Under the pieces are notes generated by a model. The model was not told the origin of the DNA and searched no databases. It saw only the letters and a list, made by a program, of their open reading frames with translations. From the NCBI GenBank assembly GCA_963971405.1, contig OZ020485.1, forward strand, positions 32,073,921 through 32,137,920: 64,000 bases of DNA, written 5' to 3'. The position numbers and the translations under genes were made by a program. Within the stretch, counting starts at the first letter, position 1. Each line of letters begins with the position of its first letter. Below are positions 3,087 through 64,000 of this stretch, one piece after another. Source of the stretch: Psococerastis gibbosa (taxonomy: Eukaryota; Arthropoda; Insecta; Psocodea; Psocidae).

Positions 3087-5146
3087 GTAAAAACAAAAAT
3101 AGATTTTAAGTTTTAAAACTTATAAGCAGCACGCACACTACTGTTGTACTGCTGTACATGGAGTTACTGAGCTAAGCACCTCCTCCTGCATTGACCACAT
3201 TACCGTATTACAAAACTTAAAAACGATGACCACAGGTATAGTTTACAGACTTACAGCAGGTGAAAATGAGGAGTCTGTTTACAAACATGACCAACTCGAA
3301 GTTGTGGAATTTTTCAGGAGAGCGGATTTTCTGTTAAAAATTGCAATTGCATTAAGTTTATAGCTAACCCTAGACTTCTCAGCGCTTCTATGCGCAATCT
3401 GGCTGCTTTTGTCACTTTATTTTACAACGGGCAGGTGGACATTACAATTTTCTGCAAGGTCGGATCAAAACCCCATTTTGTGAAAAAATGGAGTTGGCCA
3501 CGTTTGTAACCAAGCTCCTCAAATATTTATTGTGAGATGATGAGACCACGAGACGTACGGTACCTTATGAGAAAACGTCGCAGTTGTTGCTGTTAAAGTC
3601 CCAATTTGGTAGTTACCGGTTAGGACCTTCATGGGGAAAATTGGTGTAATAACGTAATAATCCAGTACAGTTTAATTAATAATTGAGGAGCATATATGCA
3701 AAAGGCCATTTGTCGTTTGAAACTGTAAAATGCAGGAGAGACAAAAAACTTATTGTAAAATCTAAATGCTTACTGGGCAGGCCTATGCATTAACTCATGG
3801 GATGTAATATTTTAATTAATATTATTTGATAATATACCTATGAATCGCATTACGCTTTTTATTAAATTTTTGTAGTAGTAATGCAATGATCCTAGTGGTA
3901 CGCCAAACTAAAAAAATTATTTTTTGTGACAAATCGCCTTTTGCATTCATGCTCCTCAAATAATAATAATTGGCTACAGTATATAATAGGTACCTAATTG
4001 ATGGACGAGTCCATTAAATGCTAGACATATTGTAAATTCCAGGTTCTTACGATCTTCAAGCAACTCCATCGCACTCGTTGTATTGTATTTCAAAACGATT
4101 TTAAAACGTTGGAGGCTGCTCGAAAGAAAATTAACAATGAATTTAAAAAGAACAGCCATGTAACCAATGTAGAGGCGATTGAAGAACTCGTCAACCTTGC
4201 TGCTAACGTTGAGAAAGAGTTGCTGACTTCAGTAGTGCAAGCTGAAGAAAGAGAGCCCGGAAAATATCGTGAGTATTTTCTTTTTAGCGATGGTTTGACG
4301 ACTGGTTTTTTTAATTAGCCTTCAATTTTTAGTTCCCTTTTGCCTATAAGCTACACATTCTTAATTTCTATGTGATAATATAACGTGGGGGGGTTACTGT
4401 CATTGGGAAAACTAGTAAAATGTGAGCAGGTTACATTTGGCGGATACAATTTAAAATTTAATTATAAGGGGGTCATATAAGCCGATCTTGTGTAGCCAAT
4501 CTAATATAATAAAACTTCTTCCTGGCTTGACTTACAAGACAGGAAGTGTGCGTTAAAAAATCTCACTCCTTTGTCGTTAGGATGGTTACTTTATATGTGC
4601 AGTTGCGGTTAATATTTTTGGCGCGCTCAAATGTCCCATCTCTCATACCTTCCCCCATGGGCCTTTTACCTCCCAACAAAAAAATAAATAAATGATGTCC
4701 CTGCGCCTAGTCTGTACCCTCCCTAGACTTCTTCTCTTAAGTAGTGTAACTGACAGTTTACAGTGTTATTAGAGGACTGAATAATAAAATTCCCTGACTT
4801 CGCTCACTTGACAGTTAGCTCACAGGTGAATTGAGCATTATTATTTTTTAAACTTTTAGTATAGAAATTAGAACACGGAAAACAGTCCACGTCCCCTAAT
4901 TCCAAATTTCTAGATGCAAAAGAACCGCTAATTTGTAGTTATGTCAAGTAGGCAATGTTTAATGTTAGCCCATGGCTGAAACATAGCGTCAGCCATCATC
5001 GTCCGAATATTTGATAAATTTATCGTCGCGGTGACATAATAGGCTATACCCATGAACTTAAATGAAAAATTGTTTTAGGCCTAAACCTGCGACCAGAAGT
5101 GAGAAAATTAGACAATGTTCCATATAAAGACTGTCCTAAGGGATAA
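3054..5146 (+). CDS. LYRM7: LYRM7/MZM1-like complex III assembly factor, full gene (3 coding exons)
   Basis: The spliced product is 108 residues (human LYRM7 has 104). LYRM7/MZM1 is a mitochondrial-matrix LYR-motif chaperone that holds the Rieske iron-sulfur protein before its insertion into respiratory complex III. The sequence shows the family's LYR-type block FKQLHRTR at residues 16-23, then EAARKKINNEF (35-45), EELVNLAANVEKELLTSVVQ (58-77) and the C-terminal NVPYKDCPKG (99-108). Coding exons are 3054-3086, 4043-4268 and 5079-5146. Intron 1 is phase 0 and intron 2 is phase 1, and all splice sites are GT-AG. The ATG at 3054 is the first in frame and gives a short leader before the LYR helix, as in homologues. 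The gene converges with the chloride channel gene on the other strand. Confidence 0.9.
4043..4268 (+). CDS. LYRM7: LYRM7-like exon 2
   Basis: Acceptor AAATTCCAG precedes 4043 and donor GTGAGT follows 4268. The exon encodes most of the LYR helical bundle (residues 12-86) and ends in phase 1 after GKY. Confidence 0.9.
5079..5146 (+). CDS. LYRM7: LYRM7-like exon 3 with stop
   Basis: Acceptor TTGTTTTAG precedes 5079. The split codon C|GC gives Arg87, then LNLRPEVRKLDNVPYKDCPKG with a TAA stop at 5144-5146. NVPY matches the conserved C-terminal NVPY of vertebrate LYRM7. Confidence 0.87.
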
Positions 5147-34900: not shown

Positions 34901-37900
34901 TCCTACGGGCTACGGTGGAAGAATAGGAGATGAAAGTCACCACTAATGACGGTAATGGCCCAGTTGATAATATATCGGGAACGGAACCGCTCCCTGACAA
35001 CCGTGACGAGTAATTAACGATATTGCTAAATGCTAAATCCTCAAATGTCAAATCGCAAATTCAATACCAAAGTTATCATCGCCCTCGCCTTCCCCCTATC
35101 CATTAATAACATCGTTATTTTCAAAAAGCTTTTAAGCTCATACCGATCCGCAAGATCTCTCCCCAGCATAAAAAACAAAATTTTTCCTGCAACCTGGATA
35201 GGGGAAAAAGAGTCTATTGATGGGTGTGCTTGCACCTCCAGTGTATAGTGACGAGATCGGGGAAACTTAGCAGCACCAGTTATGATTCGTATAGTACAAC
35301 ATTTTGGACTTTGCCTAACAGCTAGGTTCTTCAATTGTGAATAACTTGATGCGTCTTTGATTTCATCACTGTATTCCATACGACACAGCATTTGTTGCGA
35401 AGAAGTTCTGAGTGCATCCCCATGTCATGGCTGTCAAGTGCTTAAGAGGAATATAGATCTGTTTTTCCCTCTCTGGGCTGGGTCTTCAATTTCATCCGTC
35501 CAAGTCATGGCCGTAGCCAGGATTTTTTTTCGGGGGGGGGGGGGGGTGTTTAGAAATTTCATAGGATATTACATAGCGGTTTTTATTTTTCCTCTCGAAA
35601 TCCGATTCTATCTAGTATTAAGCCATTTCATTTCGGGGGGGGGGGGGGTTGAACCCCCATGAACCCCCCCTTGGCTACGGCCTCGGTCCAAGTTAGTATT
35701 GAGTCCAGTGACAATCCTAGGTATTCAGTGATAGTTTTTTTTCTCGATTCCTCCGCACTGCGTGATCCTTATACTGTAGTGTAGTTTCATTACTTCTTCT
35801 TTTCTCGCTAGAAAGTGTGACTACCTACTTGACAGACGGTTTTTTCGGCACTCACCATCATCACATTATTGTTAGGCCATTCAGTCAGAATTGTAAGTGC
35901 ATGGTTAGGAGTGGCTTTCAGGGCCACTTTTGAATGATATTCAATGGCGGATCCAAGGGGGCGATGCCCCCTAACCCCCTAAATTTGTAAATTCATAAGA
36001 TAGTAAAAAAAAATGAAAAAAACTCAAATTTTCAACAAAAAAATTACTTTTAAAACTTATACAAACAACTTGTGACCTCTCCCCCCTAAATTTTCCGTTG
36101 AATCCGCCCTTGATGGCTTACAGGGATATCACATACTGTACCTACTGTAAACAGTCTGTCCTAGCCTCTAACCTTTCCTACCACGAGAATGAGAAGGATA
36201 GCTTCAAAGGAATTGGAAATGGAAAAATCAAGGGAAGATCTAAAAGTAAATTAAGACATCTCTATCGCACCGATCGAGTTTAAATTTTGCTCACACGTAG
36301 ATTTTATGCAAACATAAATTTAATCTGAATCCGTATAAGGTATACACAAATTGATTTCTAAAATCTTCGTCTTCTTCAGCTTTACCTTGGGTCCATCAAC
36401 CCTATTAAAACCATGCCGCTGTTGTGGGCAATTTATATTCACTCGCCTATTTTAACCAGCATAGCAAATGGATACAGTTTCGGTGTAGTACAGACAATAT
36501 TGTTCTGTAAAAAAATTGATATTAATTTTAGGTACCAATAGTAACAAACACGCCCCTTTCACAACTATCGGTTTTTGTGGATTATAATTGTATATACACT
36601 TACTACTCTCCATGGCGAAGGAGCACAGAGGGTCATCGAAGGGGAAGATGTGCAGACTGCCTTGGCAGCTGAGAATGAGGTGTCTGCGCATTAAGTAGGA
36701 AATAGTGCCATTTCTGTAGATGCGTAGCGCAAAATGCATGGGGTCTAGTGGTTCCTTGAAGTCTCCGTGCATGATGAAATATGTGTCAGGCAGCCAAATT
36801 TTGTTCTGGTGATGAAGGGCGTTAAGGTAGTCGAACTTGCTTTGATTCGAGTACCTGAGTCGCGGATCGTACCACTGCTGTTGAAGAAGAAACTCCACTT
36901 CATATTTCTGAAAATAATGTAAATTAATTTGTGACGTAAATTTTGGTCACAGTAGGTTTTCCGTATGTGTTTGCATGCTTCGGCAAAGTATGCAAACACA
37001 CTGCAACTGAAACATTTCCGTAGGGGCTATAAAATCGCATCCATTTGTAAAAGATGAACGGTATGTTGGGGTGTCATAGATTATAAACATGAAAATAACT
37101 GTATGTAGGAAATCCCCTCCCACAGTATGTTATTTTTAATTAAATAGGTAAAGTATGTTTATTTAAATTACTGAAATGATGATCTTACTTAAGGCAGAGA
37201 TTTATAATTATACATAGGTATACGAGTATATCGTATATCGACTCTCCACGGCCGCAGGGAAGAAAAATCCATAAAAAATACAACCTTTCTCAAAAAGCCG
37301 TCTATTTGCCTGACTACTATACTATATAAAGTCGGAATTATAACTTAATGCACTCTTTCTCGTTTACTTAGTACTGTAATGAAAATGGCATTCATAACCA
37401 GCAACCGTACAATGGCGATTAGGGATTAACTTTAACACCGGGAATAGGGTTAAATTGTTGTAAATAGATCCCAAAGCGTCAGCCATTAATTCACATTGAT
37501 TCAATTGTTTTAAACAAAAGAAATTGCAGGAAATTCAAATAAATCCTCGGCTATATTTTTTGGCAAGTTTTCAATTTTTTCTCCCTTAGGCGGCAATTCC
37601 ACCGGCGATTTTACTTCATTTGTGATTTGGGATTTTTTGTTTGTTTTGTTTTGAGGAGACTATTATGTAGATACTTAACTTATCTATTATAAATTAAGTG
37701 ATAATATGGTAGAGACTTATTAATGATGTCTGCTACCATATTATAACTTAATTTATAATACATAAATTAAGTAGGCCTATCTACATAATAGTCTCCTTAA
37801 AACAAAACAAACAAAAAATCTCTAAATCACAAATGAAGTAAAATCGCCGGTGGAATTGCCGCCTTAGATTTGGACAGATTAATTTTCTTAATGTATTAAA

Positions 37901-49900: not shown

Positions 49901-52900
49901 GAAACAATATGTTCATCTTCCTTAGTTCCAAACAGTGCTTGGCGTAACTACAATTCGTGGGCTCCGAAGCAAGACAAGGCACATACTATGTAGTAAATTG
50001 TATACTGTAGATGCGCGCCAAACCACCAAAATTCAAATTAAAATGCTGCATTAATTTTCATTATTTTTTTAATTGTGTTTAGTAAAAGTCTGCTTTAATT
50101 TTTAAATATTTTCATGATTTTTAATGAAGATAGATACAGTATAGTATATAAGTCCGGGCCCCGGTGCACCATAGTAATTCCACCACTGGTTCAGGCAAGT
50201 CATATAAGTCGTAGACTAGACTTCTATATTGGAGAGATGGGCCATTCGCTTCCCGAAAAAAATATAGTTTTTTAGTTTCTGGGCTCACCTGCCACGTCTC
50301 CTATGACCAGCATTGAAATCTTTCCTATATAGAAATCTATCGTAGACTAAGGTTGTTTGAGAATTAACCTTGGTCAAGCAAAGCAAACATAGACTACAAA
50401 GTCGGTTGAAACTTTACCTCATGCCAAAGCTGTGTTGTGCGCAGGTTTTGCCTTTAATAATAAAGTTTATTATATCCTTTCAACTAATAACAATACCAGC
50501 AATGCTGGTAGTGGCTAAGGCCTGATTTATAGAAAACTTAAGAGGCTATGCTACGATGAAAAATGGCACCACAAAATTAAAATACTTCTAATAATTTTAT
50601 TTCATTTCCTCAGCAATTTATTACATATTTGGCTCATTTAAGTTGTACAAAGACTACTTCGTGCATCATATAATCGGGTATTTTTACTTTTCGGTTTTGT
50701 AGTTTTTCCAAAAATCCCAGATTACGCGAAATTTTAGCCCCCTCTAGTTTTTATGAAAGAACTAAGGTACCAAAAATTCAATATTTCCTATTATATGATG
50801 CATGAAGTAGTCTTCTACAACTTACATGAGCCAAGTCCTTAATAACTTGCTTTGTTAATTAATTAAAAAATAGAAAGTCAATAAAGACAACAAATTTTTG
50901 TGTGCTAATTTTCTACGTAGCATGTCCTCTTAACACAAACCTTAACCGTCCGTGACCGTGAGAAATTTTTAACCTGGAAGCTTTCTATACGCTATATGAA
51001 TAGGTCATAAGGCCGGATCGTTATGTTTGCCGTGAATGCTTCCATATGACCATTTGCCAAATATAGTGTTGACTTTTATGGTTACGGTTATGGATAAAGT
51101 TATTTTAAGTTTTCTGTAAATCAGAGGCCTTTGGGACGTTGGCTGTAAAGCGCTGTTCATAAACATCTACAATACAAGTATTTCTGTAACGTCCATAAGG
51201 AAATATTGGGTCGTAGCTGGAATGCTGAATTTACTTATACATACAGTACCTTCAAACCGCGTATGTTGGGTCAGAGAGTGTATTTTGGGTCAGCGCGCTA
51301 AAATGTTTAAAAAAATTTATTCTAGAACCACCGACAAGCATCATGGCGATGTTGATGTCTGGAAACACAGTGCAATAACTGAAGTAAATAATTTAGGCAA
51401 AAGTGAGGCACTCCAATAATGGTGAGTTAGTTTATTTTAATTCCTAGTTAAACTTGAAATATTTGAATTCCACAAACCCTGAAAAAACTTCAGTTGCAGG
51501 TTAAAATAAACAAAAATTACAAAAACTTAGAGCTTTAGAAAAACCAGTTGTAACAACCCGAATTAGTAAAACCCAAATAATCGTTAAGAAATTAACTTTG
51601 TCTAAGAAACCCACTTGTGTTAGTATAAAACCCTGAGCGCTTTCGGCAAGAGCTGCCATCTACAGAGGGAAACCCACTAGCACAGTTACACCTTATCTGC
51701 GATTTGAGACTTGCTCAACTCGAGGAGAAGATGCAAATGTGACTAGGGAGAGGAAACCTTGGTTTACATAGCACTGGGAGGAGGGGGTGGGAGAGGGCGT
51801 GGCTGGTTACCTATTCCTAACCTACTAGCTTGATCTATTAGAGAGGATGATTGTGCGAATGTTATGTCGTTTGTTAATTTTTCCCTATTGTGTAAAGCTC
51901 TTTTGATTTCAACATTTTCAAAAATATTTAAAGTGTAACTCTTCTTTATTTTGTGTAGTGCTGTCCAATTGTGAGTATCGAATGTGTGATTTTCCGATTG
52001 AAGGTGTTTCGCGAATGTGCTGTTGGTGTTGGTGTCTCCTATACCTGTTATATGTTCTCTGACCCTAGTTTTAAAGCTTCTGCCTGTTTGGCCTATGTAA
52101 ATTGCGTTACAATCGTTACAATTTAGACGATAAACTCCATTGCCTTTTTCCTTTTCTGGTTTGGTTTTGCAGTTCATGAGTTTATTGGCTGAATTGTTGC
52201 GGTTGTACGGGGCTGGTGTTTTGTCTGTTGTAGAAGAAATGAGGTTACTTATTTTTTGTGTGATTTTTTCTATATATTGTATCCTGAAATATGATTTATT
52301 GGATTCCGGGTTTAAGCTCTCTGGGGGGTAAATAAGTTTAAGGTTGTGTTTGATTTTGTGATGTCGTAGGATTCTGTCTATTAGATTGAGATTGAAATTG
52401 TTATTTTGGGCAATTTGTTTTATTGTATTATTATTATTATTGTTTAATTCATTACTATAGTTGGTTTCATTCATAGGGATGTTAAGGGGTCGAAAAATCA
52501 TACTATGGAATGCTGCGTGTTTGTGCTGGAATGGGTGAGAAGAATCAACAGGGATTATATTATCGCTATGGGTTTCTTTACGAAATATCTTGAAGTCTAG
52601 GTTACTATTATTTTTGATGATGGTGAGGTCTAAGAAGTTCAGGGAGTTGTTTTCTTCTACTTCCATGGTAAATTGGATTTTTGGGTGAATTGGGTTGATA
52701 AAACTTAAGAAATTGTCTAGTTGTCTGTTACTTCCTGTCCAAATGCAGAAGATATCATCCACATACCTTGTCCAGAAAGATTTACATTTAACTAGGGGAT
52801 TGGATTTTTATTGAGTAGAAGTTTGTGCTCGAAGTTATCCATAAAAATTACAGCAAGAAGGGGAGAAAGGGAAGAACCCATAGGTAGGGCTATTTTTTGT

Positions 52901-55900
52901 TGGTAGTAGTCGGATTCGAAACGGAAATAGTTTTGATGAGTGCATGTGTCTAACAGAAGGAGGGTCTCAGAAATAAGGTTGTTCGAGGTATTATTGTGAT
53001 AAAGTGACTGGGCAACTAATTTACGTACTTCGGGTACGGGAATATTAGTAAACAGATTTTTGACATCGAAAGAGACGAGTTTGGCATTGCTGGATAAGGA
53101 AAGGTGCTTAAGGCGGGAAATCAACTCCAATGAGTTTTTGACGCTGTGTCGGGGTGTGAAGTTTGATAGCTCGCGAATGTGTTTGTTGAGAAAACTAGCT
53201 ACTTTGCTGGCTGGGGCACTGTTATACGAAACTACTGGGCGGATAGGTTGATTGGGTTTATGAAGTTTAACCAGACCAAAAAATGAAGGAGCTACGGGGT
53301 TCATGTTGGTAAATTTATAGGCTATATCTTGAGGTATCGTATTAGAGCTTTGTTTAATGGCTTTTTTGGCTGTTTTTTGGAATTTGTTCGTGGGGTCTAC
53401 TTTAAGTTTTACGAATGTGGATTCGTCAGAAATGAGGTCTAAGACTTTAGAAACATAATCTTGGGTAGGTAAAATGACAATAGAATTTCCTTTATCCGTT
53501 TAGGTGAGTGTAAGGTTGTCTTGGGCTAGTTTCTTTTTTATAGATTTAGTGTTATCGTTTTTGTATGTACGTTTGACGTTTTTCAGAATATCTGCTGCTA
53601 TGTGTTTTTCATTATTGTGGTTTTTTAGGCTAAATTCAGTGTCTGACATTAAGTTGGTTAACGTGTTTTTGTTTAGACCTATATCGGGGCAATACTTGAG
53701 GCCCTTGTTGAGAAGTTCCATTTCTTTTGTGCTTAAAATCGTGTTAGAAAAGTTGACGGTACGAGGATAGAATTTATGTGTTGTGATGGGTAGTATAGTG
53801 AGTGTCTGCGCTGAAGGCGTGAGGCCCTGACCTACCCCAGGGGCCCAGTCTGCATCGATCGATGAAGGGGGTTAGACCGGGAACTTACGTGCGTCTCGCG
53901 CATCTGATGTTCCTTGTCGCGATGTGATGTGTGAAGTATTCCGTTGGATTTGTTATTTTGGTTTTGACTCAGTTCTTTTATTTTTTTATTTAGTGTTGTG
54001 CGTTTTTTGTAAGTGATGCCACTAATTTTTGTGTATATTTGATCTTGGAAGGTGGTCCATTCTGAAAAGTGAAGTTTGAAAGATAATTCTGAATGTAAAA
54101 CTTTAAGGTAAAGGCTTATGCTGTCTCTGATTTTGAACCATTTTTTTATTTCTTCTGCTAGCCAGACTTTCTGGGGTAATTTTTTTTGAAAATGTTGAAA
54201 TCAAAAGAGCTTTACACAATAGGGAAAAATTAACAAACGACAGAACATTCACACAATCATCCCCTCTAGGTTACCAGCCACGCCCCCTCCCACCCCCTCC
54301 TCCCAGTCCTATATAAACCTAAGTTTCCTCTCCCTAGTCACATTTGCATCTTCTCCTCGAGTTGAGCAAGCCTCAAATCGCAGATAAGGTGTAACTATGC
54401 TAGTGTGTTTCCCTCTGTAGATGGCAGTTCTTGCCGAAAGCGCTCAGGGGTTTATACTAACATAAGTGGGTTTCTTAGACAAAGTTAATTTCTTAACGAT
54501 TATTTGGGTTTTACTAATTCGGGTTGTTATAACATGTTTTTCTAAAACTCTAAGTTTTTGTTATTTTTTGTTTATTAAAATGAAATACCACGAAGTCACG
54601 AGTAATCTAATTATTTATGTTCAGTTGTAGGCAATTACTGAGAAAAGCTATCCAGTTTTGCCGCTAATATTATTGAATAATGTTTATTTGGACATTCTAA
54701 ATAGTTTTAAGAGTAACCTAAATAAGACGCGTATAGCGCTTAACTGTGGTACAAGAGGGAGGGCACTAGTAAAGAATGGGTTCTTTCAGTGACCCAAATT
54801 ACCCACCCTTAGAGTCCAAATTGGGTCAGTCTTTTTAATTTTTAATTCTTAGTGGGACCATTCTATTCGAAAAACTAGACTCCTGCTAAATCTCGTGTGC
54901 GTGCTGCTATGTTTTAACGTCAATAACTGAGAAATATTACAACAAACAATTTCAAGAGTTGAAAAATTCACTGAAAATTGACCCAATTTAGGCGGTTTTA
55001 CGGTATGCTCTTATTATACTGCATACCGAGTTTGCATACAAACATAAATGTTTAAAAGCAAATCGGACACCCCCATACCTGTTTTTCTTGTACAGAGGCC
55101 AATTTCTCTATTAAAAGAACGATGATTGAGCCATAAATGGGTAGCATAAGAATAAGAGGAAAAAACAATAATAAGAAGAAATGCTCTACACATTTAGATA
55201 CATAGTATGTAGCCGGCACGAACACCGTTTGGCCACAGTTTTAGAAGGAGAGAATGATTTACAGGTTAGATTAGCCTTCAAAAACTGTGGCCAAACGGCG
55301 TTAGTTCCGGCTACATACTATGTATTTAGAGAAGAATTTCTTCTCAATTTGGGTTCTATATTTTACATCAGGAATTTGACTTTGTGCTGGATGTCCGATT
55401 GTCACTTAAGAACCCTAGCAAAAGGGGCGGACGTATGCCCGAAGTTACGATAAATCAATATTCATATTGACATAACTTTATTATTATTTATTATTTATGC
55501 ACTTCGAGACTTCAAGACTTGTGTTTTAGACTGTGCCTACACGTCTATCAATGGGAATGGTTGTACCTTTTTAAGTGTGTAAAATATTCTATTTCACTGG
55601 AAATATTTATCGTCGGGTTTAGAATCATTATAAGCACTCAGTAGCTTACATATACGCGGTTCTTCTATACGATATCTTGATATACAGTACAGTATGTGGC
55701 CGTCATAACCATAGATTGGCCACGATTATGTATTAAGTGGAAAGTGCGCACATTTTCAGGGTTTACGTTAATTTGCTATGGGTTCAATAACTGTGGCCAA
55801 TCGGTATTATTGGCCACATAGTATGTACTGTATGGTATTTTCTCCACTGTATCGGCCATTCTCATGAAAGTGTGACCAAGTGGTAATAATATGGATTTTT

Positions 55901-61188: not shown

Positions 61189-61399
61189 CTGAAACAAATT
61201 TAAGTGCTTTTAGAATATGGGTCATTCTAAAAAAAGTGTCAGTTTTCTGTTACTAGTATTTTTTTTTTAAATTAATGTCATTTTAATTATAATGTTATGG
61301 TTATCATCAAGAAGGAAATGAAAACTTCATAATATCACAAAAATTTCGTGTTAATTTTTGTTTTATTTTCTACAGATTGTTCAAAACGGCTTCAAAATG

Positions 61400-62009
61400 T
61401 CCCCTCCGTGCGCGTTACTCACTCCATCCCGGTCCAATTGACTAAACATCAGTTCTTTTAATAAATGTCTAAAACATTTATTTTATTATAAACAGTGAAG
61501 AAACATGCTAAGAAATGCATTGTTTGGCCCTTATACTGAAGAAAAAAATTGTGACATTTCAAAAACATCTGTGGAATTCATGTTACACAAGTTTCGTCCC
61601 CTCCGTGCAAGCCATTTTCCGCGCCAATTTTAATTTTTATTTTGGCCGGAAATTGATCTTTTGCCACGTTGGACGTGGCAGTAGACAGGTTTATTTCTGT
61701 TTTGTTGGCAGCCATTGTGTTTTCATTGTGTGAGTATTTTAGAAGCCGATTTTTAATCAGGTAAATATTTTATAATTATTTCGTTTCACATGATTCGTCC
61801 CCTTTGTGCATGTTTAAAATAATTTATATTATTAAAAATGTATACATTTTTGTTTTTTAAACTAGTCAAGGTTAGTAGTTAATCTCAATTCTTGCGGCTG
61901 AGTATTCTAACCTAAAAGCTATTGCCATGAAAAAATTAACAAATAAGATTTGTCCCCTCCGTTCTAAATGTAGTTGCACGGAGGGGACAGTAAAGGCACC
62001 GTGGAGGGG
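61400..62009. promoter_or_regulatory. Cluster of TCCCCTCCGTGC repeats upstream of the transposase-like ORF
   Basis: Forward copies lie at 61400-61411, 61597-61608, 61798-61809 (two changes) and 61953-61964 (one change). An inverted copy lies at 61976-61987, and a degenerate inverted copy (GCACCGTGGAGGGG) at about 61996-62009. Copies 953 and 976 form an 11-bp perfect inverted repeat, GTCCCCTCCGT with ACGGAGGGGAC. The spacing of the first three is close to 200 bp. Such arrays often bind the element's own transposase or control its promoter. Confidence 0.7.
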
Positions 62010-62074
62010 TTGAAGACTAGAATAATGCTCCGTGAGCACGTCGCAATTAACGATTCTATGTTTTATTATTTCAG
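61730..62074 (+). other. Possible 5'-UTR intron of the transposase-like gene
   Basis: GTGAGTAT at 61730 is a good donor and TTATTATTTCAG ends at 62074, 13 bp before the ATG at 62088. This is a suggestion only; the ORF is also open back to 61974, so in-frame upstream ATGs at 62025 and 62058 exist. Confidence 0.3.
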
Positions 62075-62087
62075 ATACTGTACTGAT

Positions 62088-64000
62088 ATGAAAGTAAAAA
62101 GAACTGCAGAAGATTTAAGAAAGCTGAGGGAGAAAAATCGAGTAAGAATGAAAAAGAAAAGGGAAGAAATTAAGCTAAATCCACAGCTTCATGCAGAAAT
62201 GAAGAAAGCTGAAAGACTTAGATATCATAAACGCGTGAACGAGGGCAAAATTAAACTTGCCAAGGACTTGTCTGAAAGAGAAATAAGAAAAGTGAGGAAG
62301 ACATGGAAGAAGAAAGCTCAAAGACTTCGCAAACAGAGAAAGGAACCTCTCAGGTTAGGTGAACAAATAATGGCATATTCACCCCCTCGAACTCCACCAT
62401 TGGCTTCTCCAAATCCTGAGAGTCATCAAAAAAGAAGCGGCAAAAAAAGAAGTCGAACATGCAGAGAGATGAAAGACATGAAAATTAAAGAGTTGGAACT
62501 AAAGTTAGAGAAGATGAAAGCCAGTCGAGACAAATACAAAATGAGGTGCCATCGAATTGACAAAAAAGGACATGGTGAACCGTCGCCACGAAAAGTTGTG
62601 GACCAAATGCTTCCTCTTGCTGATAGGAATAAAAAGGCAAAGCGAGAGCTACTGTTCAATGAAGCCTTAAAAGCGCAAATCGCAACCAACTACACAAAGA
62701 CCCTGTCTTATAAAAAGAAAAAATCATTTCTGGAGCTCCTTAGTGGTAAAATTATTGAGAAGTATCACTTCAGGTCATTTTTGGGACGAATAGCGCCTTC
62801 TGTATTGCGAAAGAAAAAACTGCAAGAAGATCAAATGGCTAAAACCAAATCAAAGAATTTGAGAGAAAAGATAAGAATGTTTTTGGAGAGAGATGAGTTT
62901 AGCACGCAATGTGCTGGAAAAAAAGAATTTAAATCTCTGAAGGGTGAAAAGAAACAAAGACGTGTATTGAATGATACACTTCTAACTTTGTTTAAAAAAT
63001 TCAAGTTGTTGCATCCGAATGTCAAAGTTTGCTATGCGACTTTCTGCAAGCTGAAACCATTCTGGATTGTCCCCCATGACTTCGGCAAAAAAACATGTCT
63101 TTGTATAACACATGAGAATATGAACTTAGTGATAAGCAAATTGCATCAGCATAAGGTGATTGCGCAACGTTCTACCTACGATGTGATTAATGCCATAATT
63201 TGCAGTGAACAAAATAAGTCGTCCCCTTGCCTAGCACGAACTTGCAGCAATTGCAAACATAAATCAATTGATATTGAAGAGTTTAATGGTAGTAGTGAGA
63301 TTGTGTACCACTACTGGGGGACGAAAACAGTTCCTATTGTTTCAAAAGGGAAGGAAAAGCTGTGCAAAAAAACAGTAAAAGAAGAAAAAGTATGCACACT
63401 GTTAGAGCTTGTGAATATCTTTTTTGCCTTGTGGCCAACCTTTGTAGGACATGTAAGAAAAATGGAGCACCAGAGAGCTGCGATCGACAGAATTAAAGCA
63501 GAACTGACGAGTGATTCGGCAATAGTCCACATGGACTTTTCCGAAAATTATACATCTGCCTACACAAGGGAAGTGCAAAGTGCCCACTTTGGTGGTTCAA
63601 AGGAACAAATATCGTTGCACACTGTAGTTATTTATTATCGAACTGACAGCAATGGCTCACTACTGCATAAATCATTTGCCACTATTAGTGACAATGTTCG
63701 CCACGACCCAGCAGCCATATGCGCGCACCTCAGGCCAATTATTGACTTCCTGCTTGGTTTGTCTAGTATATCATGTGTACACTTCGTCAGCGACGGGCCA
63801 ACGACACAGTACAGGAACCGCAAGATGTTTTCTCTGGTTGGCAAATACCTGGGACCTTCACTAAAAGCCCACAAAATTCAGTGGCACTACACGGAGGCTG
63901 GCCACGGAAAAGGCGCTCCAGATGGCATTGGGGGTACCATAAAAAGAACGGCTGACCGCATGGTTGCACTAGGAAAGGGTGAGATCATTAACGCGGACAG
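62088..64000 (+). CDS. Transposase-like protein of an unclassified multi-copy animal family (3' end cut by window)
   Basis: An uninterrupted frame of at least 637 codons runs off the right edge. Residues 1-90 are highly basic and helical (REKNRVRMKKKREEIKLNPQ, LSEREIRKVRKTWKKKAQRL). A TPPLASPNPESH linker, a Lys/Glu coiled-coil-like segment (about 125-160) and a Cys/His-containing middle (CLCITHEN, CLARTCSNCKHK) follow. The C-terminal part holds MDFSENY (482-488), QSAHFGGSKEQISLHTVV, FVSDGPTTQYRN (Asp569) and YTEAGHGKGAPDGIGGTIKR (Glu603). D483, D569 and E603, with 33 residues between the last two, fit a DDE-type integrase core. That reading is inference; I recall similar proteins as repetitive uncharacterised genes in insects and cnidarians. 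No frameshift or stop is visible, so the copy could be intact. Confidence 0.7.
   Translation, partial: MKVKRTAEDLRKLREKNRVRMKKKREEIKLNPQLHAEMKKAERLRYHKRVNEGKIKLAKDLSEREIRKVRKTWKKKAQRLRKQRKEPLRLGEQIMAYSPPRTPPLASPNPESHQKRSGKKRSRTCREMKDMKIKELELKLEKMKASRDKYKMRCHRIDKKGHGEPSPRKVVDQMLPLADRNKKAKRELLFNEALKAQIATNYTKTLSYKKKKSFLELLSGKIIEKYHFRSFLGRIAPSVLRKKKLQEDQMAKTKSKNLREKIRMFLERDEFSTQCAGKKEFKSLKGEKKQRRVLNDTLLTLFKKFKLLHPNVKVCYATFCKLKPFWIVPHDFGKKTCLCITHENMNLVISKLHQHKVIAQRSTYDVINAIICSEQNKSSPCLARTCSNCKHKSIDIEEFNGSSEIVYHYWGTKTVPIVSKGKEKLCKKTVKEEKVCTLLELVNIFFALWPTFVGHVRKMEHQRAAIDRIKAELTSDSAIVHMDFSENYTSAYTREVQSAHFGGSKEQISLHTVVIYYRTDSNGSLLHKSFATISDNVRHDPAAICAHLRPIIDFLLGLSSISCVHFVSDGPTTQYRNRKMFSLVGKYLGPSLKAHKIQWHYTEAGHGKGAPDGIGGTIKRTADRMVALGKGEIINAD

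Follow-up and report, generated by a model that had tools for sequence, protein, structure and literature searches.

The question raised by this locus is whether a long open reading frame (ORF) and the short repeated sites in front of it are parts of a single mobile element, and whether the encoded protein recognises those sites. Both lie at the right-hand end of a 64,000-nucleotide stretch of the Psococerastis gibbosa genome (GCA_963971405.1, contig OZ020485.1, positions 32,073,921 to 32,137,920; hereafter the window), and an earlier note on its sequence had suggested that the pair looks like an autonomous element. The genome to which the window belongs (409 Mb in 68 contigs) was searched with the DNA and the protein. 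We conclude, with a probability of roughly 0.78, that the locus is a Sola-type cut-and-paste transposon, complete, autonomous and recently active, and that its transposase would recognise sites specific to its own family.

The ORF and the repeated sites are parts of one 4010-bp DNA transposon, which begins at window position 61219 on the plus strand and continues beyond 64000 (whole element, contig C2:32135139-32139148). The window holds its left two thirds, element positions 1-2782 (61219..64000). A terminal inverted repeat (TIR), anticipated in the earlier note, was indeed found beyond the window edge; it is 24 bp long with one mismatch, GGGTCATTCT A/G AAAAAAGTGTCAG. The left repeat, GGGTCATTCTAAAAAAAGTGTCAG, occupies 61219..61242 (+), and the right end reads GGGTCATTCTGAAAAAAGTGTCAG on the other strand. 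The element is flanked by a target site duplication, ATAT, with its left copy at 61215..61218 and its right copy abutting the element end outside the window. Genomic copies have sharp ends and 4-bp duplications, again as foreseen: identical 4-bp flanks were observed in 18 of the 19 copies having both ends, the flanks being unequal in L012. The 18 duplications are richer in A+T than the flanks (78% versus 64%), with A-T-A-T as the commonest letters. The exact 24-bp end occurs 40 times in the genome, 20 in each direction, and these are accounted for by the 19 two-ended copies (38), one copy with a single exact end (L021) and one lone end (L039). The latter is a 28-bp left end with no family 1 interior (family 1 being the element in the window and its copies) and no site within 3 mismatches. 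Because several insertions fell within repeats, other copies of these repeats show the empty site; among six displayed of the 20 joined flanks, four junctions are clean (L013, L014, L023 and L026) and two are slightly different (L017 and L028). L021, otherwise identical, is without the terminal GGG at its left end, perhaps through imprecise insertion.

A DNA search returned 31 matches, 20 of them full-length at 100%; all 20 copies were fetched, and family 1 therefore has at least 20 members, copy counts here being lower bounds. Both ends are present in 19 of them, 18 measuring 4010 bp and L028 4009 bp; L021 is missing its first three bases. Thirteen of the 18 are identical to the letter, four have one substitution in common, and the window copy carries a single private substitution, which changes I128 to M in the protein. 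L028 combines the shared substitution with a one-base deletion, and L021 is identical from position 4 onward in the stretches compared. The reading frame is open over the query in 19 of 20 copies, broken only in L028. Such near identity, together with open frames, indicates that the element moved very recently. If substitutions are assumed to arise at about 3e-9 per site and generation, a single private change among some 80 kb would give, as a rough estimate, an age of a few thousand generations. The ends, the 4-bp duplications, the copy number and the open frames all support an autonomous mobile element. Five of the 20 copies lie on contig C19 (35 Mb, about 9% of the genome), a clustering that possibly reflects local hopping, although the numbers are few.

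The repeated sites were examined first as the 12-mer TCCCCTCCGTGC. Within 2 mismatches, five sites are present in 61400-61987 (three perfect; four on the plus strand, one on the minus strand). The earlier note had counted five or six copies in the 600 bp upstream of the ORF; five are there, and the sixth in the window lies at 52853. Shuffles of the whole window gave a mean of 0.89 sites, and none of 100 reached six. The 14-mer GTCCCCTCCGTGCA is a better form of the site. Its left-arm copies are at 61399..61412 (+, element 181, GTCCCCTCCGTGCG, 1 mismatch), 61596..61609 (+, element 378, perfect), 61797..61810 (+, element 579, 2 mismatches), 61952..61965 (+, element 734, 2 mismatches) and 61975..61988 (-, element 757, inverted and perfect). 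Three more are found in the right arm at element positions 3624, 3797 and 3818, all on the plus strand and within 2 mismatches, and none in the ORF. No 14-mer site, at up to 3 mismatches, appeared in 100 first-order Markov resamplings of both arms. A mirror array had been suggested beyond 64000; the second array exists but does not mirror the first, since all three of its sites are oriented like most of those on the left.

These sites are almost exclusively a property of the family. The exact 14-mer has 65 matches in the genome, of which 60 fall in the 20 copies (three in each, so that array and ORF are common to the copies), four in diverged relatives (L041 one, L042 two, L043 one) and one elsewhere; the reversed pattern, as a control, has one match. 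The lone outside match is at C2:31114276, where 24 bp resemble element positions 757-780. In the three diverged relatives, 217 of 224 site letters are kept, compared with 2115 of 2438 elsewhere in the arms, a degree of conservation matched by 2 of the 4953 random eight-window sets that could be used (47 of 5000 sets were dropped because too few letters were covered). Both L041 and L042 carry an internal deletion, and in each the similarity to family 1 stops at element position 1686; they are therefore not independent, and the conservation test was made on related copies. Similarity resumes at about element positions 3512 and 3404, respectively. The two forms retain an N-terminal stretch of the coding sequence and some of the sites in each array, and perhaps represent a non-autonomous or repressor-type family.

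Repeated motifs can also arise by local duplication, in which case the array would be a functionless leftover, and likeness does reach 28 bp around three of the left sites. However, it is confined to about 14-28 bp at each site, the sites are better conserved than the surrounding arms, and other families show similar spacings built from different motifs (see below). We regard this origin as very improbable.

A protein search of the genome gave 74 matches, which include a second young family. Family 2 numbers 13 copies, its open frame spans 823 codons, and its protein is about 30% identical to that of family 1 over nearly the full length (35% over the searched part). Four of the copies were fetched; each is 3916 bp long, differs from the first copy by 0 to 2 bases, and is flanked by a 4-bp duplication. 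Both termini are GGGTCATTCT, as in family 1. The site of family 2 is different, GTCACAAGTGTTAC, with seven copies on the left and four on the right within 2 mismatches. Its exact form has 65 matches in the genome, all in its own 13 copies (five each; control, 1), and neither family carries the site of the other within 3 mismatches. Four further families, each known from one or two loci, also have motifs different from those of families 1 and 2: CGTCATAAGTGTAACG in family 3 (L033 and L034), GTCCCGTACGTGACG in the decayed family 4 (L036), AGGACTGTTAC in the decayed family 5 (L038) and TGTCCGCTCCGTA in the decayed family 6 (L035), which has a left array only. The right end of family 3 comes from comparison of its two loci, and the ends of decayed families 4-6 were not found. 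A seventh relative, L037, shows no clear left array but a palindromic repeat at the right. At L033 (reverse complement, about 435-1219) the family 3 left arm adjoins frames resembling another gene or element, and no exact GGGCCATTCT end was found at this locus.

The spacing of the left array recurs from family to family while the motif changes. Start to start, it is 197, 201, 155 and 23 bp in family 1; 192, 155, 16, 24 and 19 in family 2 (a doubled first site at 401 omitted); 191, 157, 16, 21 and 19 in family 3; 224, 157, 16, 17 and 16 in family 5; and 187, 189 and 174 in family 6. Family 4 (166, 13) is least alike. The left run closes with one or two inverted sites in families 1, 2, 3 and 5, and likewise in family 4, provided that its site, whose orientation is uncertain because it is close to a palindrome, is read that way. 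Between families 1 and 2, clear similarity of the arms is limited to the first 16 bp (259 of 850 positions identical in register); nevertheless, two sites fall at the same positions in both (579 and 734), as does a donor-like GT (543). In a comparison made post hoc, the two exact coincidences were equalled by 59 of 100,000 random placements, and the agreement of four sites within 15 bp by about 1.2%. The GT is not a general feature, since in family 3 it follows rather than precedes the corresponding site.

Could these arrays instead be targets of a host protein, or influence transcription or chromatin as promoter, insulator or phasing element for nucleosomes, with the TIRs sufficing for transposition? 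Many of the spacings are about 155-200 bp, which is near the nucleosome repeat length, and on the left the sites precede the gene or fall within its candidate intron. Yet sites are present in both arms, including the 3′ arm past the ORF, and the motifs of two families differ and are nearly absent as exact copies from the rest of the 409 Mb, which would be odd for a host factor. We consider such a role distinctly unlikely. Given the same ends and similar spacing with different private sites, it is natural to suppose that transposase and site evolve in step, and that the array would determine which element a given enzyme moves. It may be, on a tentative judgement at somewhat less than even odds, that the spacing of the array persists while the sequence recognised is exchanged between families, that pairs of transposase and site co-diverge and become mutually exclusive, and that the array, not the TIR, carries family identity. 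If so, families with the same left terminal 16 bp and 4-bp duplications could jump together without using each other's ends.

The transposase gene begins with ATG at 62088 (+), and codons 1-637 of 830 lie in the window (62088..64000). The stop-free frame of more than 637 codons reported previously is thus present and ends outside the window after 830 codons, the open frame totalling 868. Donor-like GT (element 543) and acceptor-like AG (ending at 856) bound a candidate 5′ untranslated region intron at 61761..62074, read from the sequence, and array sites 3-5 fall inside it. The protein is predicted to comprise a basic helical N-terminus, an RNase H-like core and a Tudor/SH3-like C-terminus beyond the window. 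The acids D483 (63534..63536), D569 (63792..63794) and E603 (63894..63896) are at the positions and in the motifs that the note had given, and its expectation of an RNase H fold agrees with the predicted structure. Here D483 lies on the first strand (477-489) and D569 directly after the fourth (563-568) of an RNase H-type core, and the structural comparison list is headed by integrase cores. Both residues are conserved in three full-length proteins. E603, the third acid proposed, fared less well, being kept in three of five families and replaced in two, whereas D612 (63921..63923), in HGKGxxDG, is kept in all five families covering the position; the loop 603-612 has a pLDDT under 50. E603 was therefore dropped as the likeliest third acid, which makes D-D-D the more probable triad. 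Weak matches to other long frames (for example of 709 and 753 codons, E about 1e-4) were obtained with the Tudor/SH3-like C-terminus of L036, one such match being G000:C12:29854920-29855150; the domain may be common to other transposon groups.

Taken together, an 830-residue transposase with an RNase H-like core would cut at the GGGTCATTCT termini and insert the element by a 4-bp staggered cut, with a preference for AT-rich targets. Contact with the 14-bp sites of both arms is probably made by the basic, helical N-terminal region, and several site-bound molecules would bring together the ends of the correct element to the exclusion of other families. Through the sites close to the start of the gene, the transposase may also regulate its own expression. 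The presence in this genome of two families of a transposon type that has been little studied, both very young, largely intact and equipped with separate arrays, offers natural pairs for testing how a transposase tells its own element from same-ended relatives, and provides candidate starting points for gene-transfer tools.

Elsewhere in the window, reverse transcriptase (PF00078) and GIY-YIG (PF01541) domains are found on the minus strand at 51764-53499 in two overlapping frames, presumably a broken Penelope-like element. A piece of a ligand-gated ion channel (PF02931) lies at 36452-36946, also on the minus strand; three of the seven frames of at least 130 codons were scanned.

The earlier note knew of no accepted name for the element; its features fit those described for the named superfamily Sola. 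Sola elements have 4-bp target duplications, sizes mostly of 2-9 kb and TIRs of 11-1124 bp, and are said to occur in bacteria too (PMC10741241). The 4010-bp length and 24-bp TIR fall within these ranges, and 4-bp duplications are present in both families. AT-rich 4-bp duplications as in Sola2, a short TIR, a size of a few kb, a transposase of 800-900 residues and the tentative D-D-D reading likewise agree with the descriptions of Sola and Sola2 (PMC10741241, PMC3627910). The group fits nearest to Sola2 within Sola, compared by described features rather than by sequence. Sola2 is known from animals, with 14 curated full-length elements from bivalves (PMC10294476). A literature search, with most subscription journals outside it, gave no account of subterminal arrays in Sola in the text returned; in the relevant passage of the single paper found to join Sola, subterminal, transposase and DDE, subterminal is used of Helitrons (PMC3627910). 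Nothing relevant to the terminus GGGTCATTC was among the matches listed, and nothing was found on GHGKG together with transposase.

The alternative that the element belongs to an unnamed superfamily of DNA transposons distinct from Sola should also be weighed. Residues 1-637 had no match in Pfam above the cut-off, or up to E 10, and none in NCBIfam. Thirteen members against Pfam (up to E 1) hit 14 families, one member each and with a single E value below 0.02; no integrase family was among them. No relative was found in the PDB by sequence with the partial protein and a three-sequence profile. None was confirmed in viral contigs, bacterial genomes, phages or plasmids, even though Sola is said to extend to bacteria; these collections are, however, not of animal genomes. 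Set against the agreement in duplications, sizes, TIR, transposase length and the tentative triad, these results make a placement outside Sola unlikely, if worth keeping in mind.

Other superfamilies agree less well. piggyBac and Kolobok duplicate TTAA, while the duplications here vary and TTAA is seen in none of the 18; membership in either was rejected. Ginger2 shares a 4-bp duplication and an integrase-type RNase H fold, here predicted, but would be expected to have a Gypsy-like integrase domain, and the present proteins lack a Pfam integrase match despite the similar fold. CACTA (En/Spm) elements have subterminal TNPA sites, a 3-bp duplication and CACTA termini; they resemble the present element in that a short site recurs many times in each arm, in direct and inverted orientation, and differ in using two proteins rather than one. 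With a 4-bp duplication and GGGTCATTCT termini, the element was not assigned to CACTA/EnSpm. hAT elements make an 8-bp duplication, and hAT was rejected on this ground, although Ac and Kat1 are alike in having subterminal repeats. In Kat1 these repeats are reported to matter alongside the TIRs (PMC4763223). By analogy, the element would work like CACTA and hAT transposons, whose enzymes bind many subterminal sites. What is unusual is that, in one genome, the same ends, the same duplication length and a similar spacing accompany a private site that differs between the two families tested.
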